Shown piece by piece: positions 27,617-64,000 of a stretch of 64,000 nt of DNA. The notes under the pieces are model-generated. The model ran no database searches. It was not told the origin of the DNA and saw nothing but the letters and a program-made list of their open reading frames with translations. Position 1 is the stretch's first letter; every line of letters starts with the position of its first letter. The position numbers were made by a program, and so were the translations under genes. The DNA is taken from NCBI GenBank assembly GCA_023205875.1, contig CP060757.1, forward strand, positions 496,001-560,000. The letters are read 5' to 3'. This DNA is from Chloropicon primus (taxonomy: Eukaryota; Chlorophyta; Chloropicophyceae; Chloropicales; Chloropicaceae).

Positions 27617-28997
27617 CTTTCATCATGCTTTTTTTTTCTCGTCTTCTTCATCTTCTCCTCGAGCAACCGATGTCTCTCTCTGTCTCTCTCCCAATCATAT
27701 ATTTCATATCTTTTTTATATATAGAAACAATACATATATAACACGCCCCCCTCTCTCTCTCCTTGTTTAGATGAGGTCGCCCCCCGCGCTGATAAAGCCT
27801 CTGGAGCCCTAATTGTGGACAGCAGTCAGTCGTTGCTGCGAGAGTCACCTCCTTGGCATCACGGCCTTCGTCGACAAAGGCGAACAACCACACACACAGA
27901 GAGAGTCAGAGTCAGAGTCAGAGACAGAGACAGAGAGACAGAGAGACAGACAGAGAGAGATTACCTTGGCAAGGAGAAGGATACGATCCAAGACTCGCGA
28001 ACGTAACGCGAGGTGGTCGAGGTTGTGGACCAGAGTTTTCCTTTTCTCTCTCTCTCTCTCTCTTACGAATGCGAATGAGAGAACGGAATGAGGCAAGCGA
28101 GTAGCGCTGGGAAAGGTCGGGAGGTCGGGAGGCAACGCTTATCGTCGTGTTGTGTTGCTCGCTTCCCTCGTCCTCAACCTCCCTTGCGCGCCGCTGTTTC
28201 GGTTTCCGATCAAAGCAAACCGCCGGCAAACGCGATCGATCGATCGATCTGATCTGATCGTGCAGAGAGGGAGGTGGGTGGTGAAAATATGGACAGAGCA
28301 CAACTCTGCAGGGGATGCGACGGATGAATGGAGAAGGGGACGAGGGAAAGAGGGAAAGAGGGGAAGAGGGGAAGGACTTGATTGCTCTCTCCATTGCTTT
28401 CGATGGATCAAGAAATGAATGGATCAGCCGCTTGCTTGCTTTGGAACGTACGGATTTGGAATTTCGATCTCGCTTCCTTCCTCGCTCCTCCTCCCAGGAT
28501 AATGAACGTCTCTCATAGAATATTTTATCGCGCGGAGCAAGAAGAGCCGTCTGACGACACCTCTCACAACCCCTTCCAGGTCCGCGAGGGCGGGAGACGA
28601 GGTCTCCGTTCCCGCAGGAGAGATCCCGGAGAAGGCCTTGCATTTAGCGCTGGCTGCTCTTGTGAGGAGGCCGCGAGGGACTTCAGCTCATGCGAGGGTG
28701 TTTGGGTTCATCCTCCGGCTTGAGAAAATTTGTCTATTCTAGAGAATACAGAATAGGGGAAACAACTATAGAACAAATCCTGTTCGAGTATAGTCGTGCT
28801 TGTGGATTCCGCCGCGACGGTTCTTGTAGGCCACGTCAACTTGCAACGCGAATTGCTGGCGGAGCCCGAGAGCCGAGCGCGGGCAGAGCCGAGGCCCACG
28901 ACGACGAGGACGACGAGGACGACGAGGACGACGAGGGCGATCCGAGGTTGCTCGTGTCTCGGTTTAGGTTTTAGGTCTATACCGCACCGCACCGATT
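27617..28997. other. 1.4-kb intergenic region without a recognised gene
   Basis: Flanked by the foreign-looking gene and NFU. It contains GA/CT simple repeats (about 27897-27960 and 28046-28064), a GATC tetramer run (about 28236-28252), and GAC repeats near 28905-28935. Several long frames are open on both strands only because of low complexity. I found no tRNA or other RNA gene. Confidence 0.5.
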
Positions 28998-63326: not shown

Positions 63327-63662
63327 CGTGTGAGCGATTACCTTGCCAGTTCCTCCTGTCTTCTTGTCTTGTTGTTTTGTGGGACGCGGATTGTGGGAGT
63401 GCAGATGCTGCTGCTGCTGCTACGCGGCGCGGCGCGGCTCCTCTGTGCGTGCGGGTGTCCAAAATCCCAGACGCCTTCGCTCGCGCTCCGGTGGATGCGG
63501 GGTTCGTCGCCCTCCTCCTCGTCCCGCTTGTGGCTCACAGGAGCCCCCCCTCGGCTTGTGGATAGGGCACGGCGACGACGACGGGGGGGTCCATCTCTAT
63601 ATATTCAAGAAATTGTCGTTCATCATGTTTGTTTAAGTGTAACTTTGGTGGTACACTAAAAA
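63327..63662. other. Intergenic region between the CCB1-like gene and tRNA-Lys
   Basis: 336 bp holding the promoter of the CCB1-like gene. A GCTGCT run at 63406-63421 is the only repeat. No additional gene supported. Confidence 0.45.
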
Positions 63663-63677
63663 ACCGCGTTAGCTCAG

Positions 63678-63755
63678 GTACGTCTCAGGAAGAAAAACCT
63701 CGCCACCCGACGTTGAATCTCCCACTGACATGCGAATTTCGTCCGATCTATGTAG
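63678..63755 (+). other. D-loop intron of tRNA-Lys with spliceosomal-type signals
   Basis: The insert begins GTACGT right after TAGCTCAG and ends TATGTAG before TTTGG. It contains CTGAC at 63725-63729, about 27 nt from the 3' end, like the branch sites of protein-gene introns in this window. The 3' border plus exon (TAGTTTGGTAGAGC) imitates a complete box A. Confidence 0.65.
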
Positions 63756-63778
63756 TTTGGTAGAGCGCCAGACTTTTA

Positions 63779-63816
63779 CTCTTAGTACGGGGATCTACTC
63801 TCGAAAAAGTCCAGTT
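63779..63816 (+). other. Canonical anticodon-loop intron of tRNA-Lys
   Basis: 38 nt, one base after the anticodon, with the intron-anticodon pairing expected for substrates of the tRNA splicing endonuclease. Confidence 0.8.
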
Positions 63817-63852
63817 ATCTGGTGGTCGTGGGTTCGAGCCCCACATGCGGTG

Positions 63853-64000
63853 TCACCGCGGCGAAACAACAGTCGCCTCTCCTCTTGCTCCGTGAGACAA
63901 AGGTTCGGTGAGAGACGTTAGTTAGACGGTCGAGAGAGAAAGAGCCGCCGGCCGTAACGCCAAAGCCGCGGCCGACGAGTACGGCGACGAGAAGACCACG
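63853..64000. other. Right edge, no gene called
   Basis: Contains ACCGCG just after the tRNA (63855-63860), an echo of the acceptor strand, and GC-rich sequence to the end. No T-run terminator and no complete open frame with a domain. Confidence 0.4.

Follow-up and report, generated by a model that had tools for sequence, protein, structure and literature searches.

Ectopic D-arm introns are known in tRNA genes. In Cyanidioschyzon merolae, tRNA-Ile(UAU) carries introns with hBHBh' motifs in its D, anticodon and T arms, the D-arm intron lying at 12/13 (accessible part of PMC9602550), and the non-canonical tRNA introns of the Guillardia theta nucleomorph measure 3-24 nt and include D-arm cases (accessible part of PMC4090602); many of these non-canonical introns are without a defined bulge-helix-bulge according to the available text of a review (PMC3978253). 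Insertions in the D or T arm of eukaryotic tRNA genes mostly affect one of several synonymous genes and are taken as pseudogenes, as stated in the consulted portion of PMC4090602. Spliceosomal introns, for their part, have been described in the U6 snRNA of fungi, fission yeast among them, and also in U3 of fungi (PMC5832005 and PMC10484740, as far as their available text extends), and the available section of a 2026 review presents tRNA splicing as spliceosome-independent (PMC13149111). No report of a spliceosomal intron in a tRNA was found in the titles and abstract openings of open-licence literature, among the matches listed.

The gene examined in this study is a nuclear tRNA-Lys(UUU) of Chloropicon primus, whose genome comprises 17,584,162 bases in 20 contigs. 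By direct reading of the sequence, the gene lies at 63663-63852 on the plus strand of the window (the whole stretch of 64,000 nucleotides analysed here, contig 4, 496001-560000), and its full cloverleaf requires the removal of two segments, 63678-63755 (78 nt) in the D loop and 63779-63816 (38 nt) after position 37. An earlier note on this DNA had held that the five tRNA stems pair only without both inserts, and this is confirmed: 21 of 21 stem pairs form in the spliced tRNA, and ARAGORN called tRNA-Lys(ttt) once both inserts were deleted from 63663-63852. The same program called no tRNA on the unmodified window. With the D-loop insert alone deleted it returned Lys(ttt) with a 38-nt intron, and with the 37/38 intron alone deleted it returned Lys(ttt) with an 83-nt intron placed elsewhere (after base 28), so the D-loop borders were not located by that run itself. 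The tRNA also went undetected when the window was scanned with Rfam at gathering scores, and a genome search with RF00005 gave the locus as a partial match only (23.2 bits, E 0.151). Elsewhere in the window, a U3 snoRNA candidate on the minus strand (28544-28797) matched Rfam RF01848 with 55.2 bits against a cut-off of 55.

All parts of the gene are on the plus strand. Exon 1 (63663-63677; direct reading, ARAGORN and stem pairing) begins with the 5' strand of the acceptor stem, ends at G15 in the D loop and holds the first half of the A box, which the D-loop insert splits. Exon 2 (63756-63778) contains the remaining D arm, the 5' strand of the anticodon stem and the UUU anticodon to A37, and exon 3 (63817-63852) extends from position 38 to the discriminator base, both being supported by ARAGORN and stem pairing; the T loop or B box, GGTTCGAGCCC, was located at 63831-63841 by a B-box search. 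Between exons 2 and 3 lies the 38-nt intron at 37/38 (63779-63816), which is of the ordinary tRNA type, allows a C32:G(-3) anticodon-intron pair and resembles the 45-nt intron at 37/38 of the paralog tRNA-Lys(CUU) (contig 15, 499569-499687, minus strand). After removal of the D-loop insert the junction reads GCTCAG^TTTGGTAGAGC, and three shifted registers of the 78-nt insert yield an identical spliced product. The paralog reads GCTCAG-TTCGGTAGAGC and is without a D-loop insert, which fixes the insert of tRNA-Lys(UUU) at 78 nt; of the 78-79 nt proposed in the earlier note, the lower figure is therefore borne out and the higher one is not. A DNA search of the genome found no other copies of the insert.

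Comparison of the two lysine genes also bears on whether tRNA-Lys(UUU) is a working gene. They differ at 7 of 74 mature positions, all 21 pairs are intact in each, and two double compensatory changes separate their stems, at 5-69 and 29-43 (alignment numbering). Intact pairing together with the two compensatory changes argues that both genes have been under selection as tRNAs, and with its pairs, compensatory changes and upstream motif (see below) the tRNA-Lys(UUU) gene looks functional. As a separate observation, the 37/38 intron of tRNA-Lys(UUU) begins with CTCTTA (63779-63784), the anticodon-loop sequence of tRNA-Lys(CUU), so that the UUU loop may have formed next to a CUU loop of earlier date, since turned into intron.

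The splice signals of the genome were learned with a gene finder based on an HMM, which took its training set from long ORFs and was applied to the window plus positions 100001-300000 of contig 2 (264 kb). One run had no splice-context preference beyond GT and AG and predicted 149 introns, while a second run with a weak eukaryotic prior predicted 146; 108 were exactly common to both. The reference set consists of 81 introns, all of them HMM predictions, that occurred in both runs, measured 45-400 nt and had a 5' site above 5 bits. Intron discovery by codon scores and by motif enrichment was also tried and was dropped as confounded by coding sequence. The learned consensus comprises a 5' site AG/GTRAGT, a branch site CTGAC and a YAG tendency at the 3' end. 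Near the 3' end no other pentamer occurs as often as CTGAC, which 41 of the 81 predicted introns carry; the 3' ends are CAG in 43 predicted introns, GAG in 21, AAG in 12 and TAG in five, and just two of the 81 begin with GTACGT. The earlier statement that most GT-AG introns of the protein genes here share GTACGT, CTGAC and TAG consequently holds for CTGAC, and its wording was too strong for the other two signals.

Measured against these predicted introns, the D-loop insert scores like a median one. Its layout is CAG/GTACGT...CTGAC, 23 nt, TAG, and the GT...AG ends fall on the exact exon borders, which are set by the tRNA cloverleaf and the paralog independently of the splice signals. The 5' splice site (63675-63683) agrees with CAG/GTAAGT at 8 of 9 positions, a match equalled by 12 of the 81 predicted introns and exceeded by none, and its 9.3 bits lie within the consensus of the organism, 48 of the 81 scoring the same or lower. 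The branch-site match CTGAC (63725-63729, with the putative branch A at 63728) scores 8.8 bits as ACTGACA, a value that 71 of the 81 do not surpass. Its distance of 27 nt from the branch A to the last intron base compares with a median of 34 nt in the predicted introns (middle half 26-43 nt), and the stretch between the branch A and the final TAG is free of AG, as in 46 of the 81. The 3' site, TAG/T, is poor at 1.5 bits, as low in only four of the 81. Overall, the insert totals 19.5 bits, where the 81 predicted introns average 19.4, and ranks 41 of 81; in a wider set of predicted introns (45-600 nt), 87 of 135 score no higher, and its length of 78 nt exceeds the 5th percentile (72).

Chance is a poor explanation of these signals, judging from their rarity in shuffled and in non-intron sequence, both tests being after the fact in that the earlier reader had already pointed at GT, CTGAC and AG. 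GT..AG fell in a legal register in 2101 of 400,000 in-place shuffles of the insert; one shuffle reached an equal total, and none combined that total with the branch distance and the AG-free stretch. Non-intron 78-nt GT..AG segments attained the score of the insert in four of 1909 cases. In its predicted fold the insert has its 5' splice site paired with the branch region, which might hide both, although this fold is no better than that of shuffled sequence (z -0.03, with 94 of 200 shuffles folding at least as well). A genome search for an A box followed by a 5' splice site returned 27 places, against 40 in a backward control; of the 26 that are not tRNA-Lys(UUU), 16 were read and none is a tRNA, so that tRNA-Lys(UUU) stands as a single case among the places read. 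A self-splicing intron was considered and rejected, given that the insert has no Rfam match and that its size of 78 nt speaks against a self-splicing intron.

As to the tRNA splicing endonuclease, two places in the genome scored over the cut-off for its catalytic family (PF01974). At the anticodon loop, processing of the TSEN type seems frequent in this genome, as indicated by the 37/38 introns and by six loci with circularly permuted tRNA genes, namely Arg(ACG), Ser(UGA), two Glu(CUC), Glu(UUC) and Phe(GAA). In these loci the 3' half precedes the 5' half (L069, C1:1319340-1320040; L070, C3:655220-655920; L071 and L072, C5:490200-490900 and 492900-493600; L075, C14:98250-98950; L076, C5:62600-63500), and by our reading the joints appear to lie at 37/38. 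Neither the 37/38 introns nor the six permuted loci gave any sign of TSEN cutting away from that position. Prasinophytes and Auxenochlorella are known to have permuted tRNA genes (accessible part of PMC12633428); a literature search showed no report of them for Chloropicon, and the word "permuted" is absent from the main text of PMC12301720. A bulge-helix-bulge, for which the earlier note had proposed folding the insert borders, was not seen there: the main register scored 4.0 of 10, with 80-82% of shuffles as good, and the central helix alone was equalled by 85% of shuffles. This outcome agrees with a spliceosomal reading, but it carries little weight, since ten 37/38 introns with hand-set borders, used as controls, did not clearly beat their shuffles in the same test either (P 0.06-0.81). 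An anticodon-intron pair, counting G-U, is possible in eight of these ten introns, that of tRNA-Lys(UUU) included.

Where the A box is split, transcription may involve sequences upstream of the gene. A TATATA...AAATTG motif, TATATATTCAAGAAATTG, found by regular expression at 63598-63615 on the plus strand, is a possible external promoter and start region. A TATA-like box plus AAAWTG occurs upstream of 22 of 39 tRNA genes, tRNA-Lys(UUU) being one of them, whereas 1.2% of 4000 random windows of 120 nt contain it. The pattern for this count was written after the upstream regions had been viewed, and a few of its matches are oddly spaced and perhaps spurious. The motif stands 47 nt from tRNA-Lys(UUU), a greater distance than 18 of the other 21 matching genes show, and the U6 gene has, by eye, a similar TATAAA...GAAATTG arrangement. 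This pair of elements is a possible external polymerase III promoter, which would make split-A-box or permuted genes readable. At L056/L073 (C6, near 501966), the apparent end of a U6 snRNA gene, recognized by eye, is directly followed by a tRNA-like T-arm/B-box, perhaps an external B box. On the 3' side, no T-run terminator occurs in the 148 nt that follow tRNA-Lys(UUU) within the window, and several normal tRNA genes of this genome, Lys(CUU) and Arg(UCG) among them, are without a close T-run too. The expected place of the T-run is often occupied by a dispersed repeat, GGCGAAACAACAGYCGCC then TTGCTCCGYGAGA..., which is found 3' of many tRNA genes, in the window at 63860-63877 and downstream, and also at L069, L074, L022, L028, L031, L034, L042, L055 and L017. 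Some copies start with pieces like the tRNA-Lys(CUU) gene, so the repeat could be a mobile element that is associated with tRNAs or resembles a SINE.

The number of genes that could supply tRNA-Lys(UUU) was also surveyed. A genome-wide DNA search with the spliced gene as query did not find a second one, and a pattern for an intronless UUU tRNA had zero matches in the genome. A T-arm pattern allowing three mismatches hit 11 places, of which ten were fetched without yielding a further Lys(UUU): two are the lysine genes and eight are other tRNA genes or halves, while the unfetched place (contig 16, 222676) has a T loop without the usual A. A pattern that combined the D arm with the anticodon and tolerated two mismatches hit five places, again none of them a further Lys(UUU), comprising the two lysine genes, one contig 15 tRNA (probably Asn) and two places that are not tRNAs according to ARAGORN. 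Some of the T stems that are possible fall within these T-arm patterns, and looser B-box places were taken as the first 100 of 266. Scoring 63 of 285 candidates with RF00005, a model that selects against tRNAs with D-loop inserts, gave 33 tRNA genes, compared with a published count of 46 by tRNAscan-SE (PMC12301720, in its accessible part); the tRNA set of the genome is thus listed incompletely, and the search for another UUU gene is non-exhaustive to that extent. A tRNA-Sec gene was called by ARAGORN at L103 (C4:1183250-1183700). In gene models over the 264 kb, AAA accounts for 612 and AAG for 3747 of 4359 lysine codons. By standard decoding rules, the anticodon CUU does not decode AAA.

Several explanations of the D-loop insert can be weighed against this evidence. 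The earlier note had left open whether an endonuclease cuts an ectopic intron or two machineries mature one tRNA; the U2-type signals, matched once in 400,000 shuffles, favour the second option, and the bulge-helix-bulge result contributes weakly. If the tRNA splicing endonuclease did remove the insert, GT, CTGAC and AG would be coincidental, at a rarity of 1 in 400,000. Such an intron would have precedents in the ectopic D-arm introns of C. merolae (PMC9602550) and Guillardia (PMC4090602), many of the latter being without a defined bulge-helix-bulge in the available text of PMC3978253, and would suit a genome with two PF01974 matches in which TSEN-type disruption looks common. However, the insert borders show no bulge-helix-bulge (80-85% of shuffles are as good, in a low-powered test), the six permuted joints were read at 37/38 with no cutting seen elsewhere, and green algae are almost without ectopic tRNA introns according to the available part of that review (PMC3978253). 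Removal by the endonuclease is accordingly considered unlikely. A dead or dying copy, whose insert is never removed while mature tRNA-Lys(UUU) comes from elsewhere, is quite unlikely in our estimation, since no other UUU gene was found, 21 of 21 pairs and the upstream motif are kept and two compensatory changes have occurred. The split A box, the incomplete tRNA census and the usual treatment of D- and T-arm insertions in eukaryotic tRNA genes as pseudogenes (PMC4090602, in its consulted portion) all point towards such a copy, as does the lack of a T-run in 148 nt, although the normal genes Lys(CUU) and Arg(UCG) are likewise without a close T-run.

It is also conceivable that the insert is an intron of a polymerase II transcript overlapping the tRNA by accident, as the same signals would presumably serve a polymerase II RNA too. 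The nearest long flanking ORFs (1083 nt and 2109 nt) are both on the minus strand, although a 549-nt plus-strand ORF overlaps the upstream 1083-nt ORF, and an accidental overlap leaves unexplained why the borders restore the D loop exactly; this origin appears very improbable.

The D-loop insert is best explained as an intron of the U2 spliceosomal type that the spliceosome removes, and on the sequence evidence this explanation is probably correct; the spliceosomal introns of U6 and fungal U3 are a precedent for it. Anatomy and splice signals are solid, and the sequence also shows the exact borders, an intact and co-varying tRNA body and the upstream motif; the action of the spliceosome, the order of steps and the use of polymerase III are what we infer. 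The intron would have entered the nuclear tRNA-Lys(UUU) gene, the sole gene for this tRNA that the searches found, at a CAG/ site. RNA polymerase III probably transcribes the gene with the help of the upstream TATA-type promoter, which is proposed because the insert splits the A box. The spliceosome would first excise the D-loop intron, restoring the D arm and the cloverleaf, and TSEN and a ligase would next excise the 38-nt intron at 37/38. The balance leans slightly towards a nuclear tRNA that has to be processed by two splicing systems with no relation to each other, the D loop being the task of the spliceosome and the anticodon loop that of TSEN with the ligase.

If this explanation is true, tRNA-Lys(UUU) would be the first tRNA with a spliceosomal intron, so far as the open-licence literature searched shows, and two intron systems would meet within one molecule. 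The spliceosome would be able to process a tRNA precursor, and spliceosomal intron gain would be possible in a tRNA gene seemingly without a spare copy. Should the gene also be the sole decoder of AAA, the reading of a sense codon would fall under spliceosome control. The case is directly testable with RNA from the cultured alga, and RNA-seq reads exist for C. primus CCMP1205 (PMC12301720).

Among known systems, the canonical tRNA intron at 37/38 matches the 38-nt intron only and not the D-loop insert. The tRNA-Ile(UAU) of C. merolae is alike in being a nuclear algal tRNA that combines a D-arm intron with one at 37/38, but its introns have a bulge-helix-bulge, whereas none was seen in tRNA-Lys(UUU), which has GT, CTGAC and AG instead. 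The Guillardia nucleomorph likewise has non-canonical introns that include the D arm and often show no defined bulge-helix-bulge; these measure 3-24 nt rather than 78 nt, and splice signals are not described for them in the accessible text. The U6 and U3 introns are comparable to the proposed intron of tRNA-Lys(UUU) in being of U2 type and lying in genes for short, structured non-coding RNAs, U6 being in addition a polymerase III transcript. Their hosts, however, are not tRNAs, and tRNA-Lys(UUU) adds a TSEN-type intron in the same molecule.
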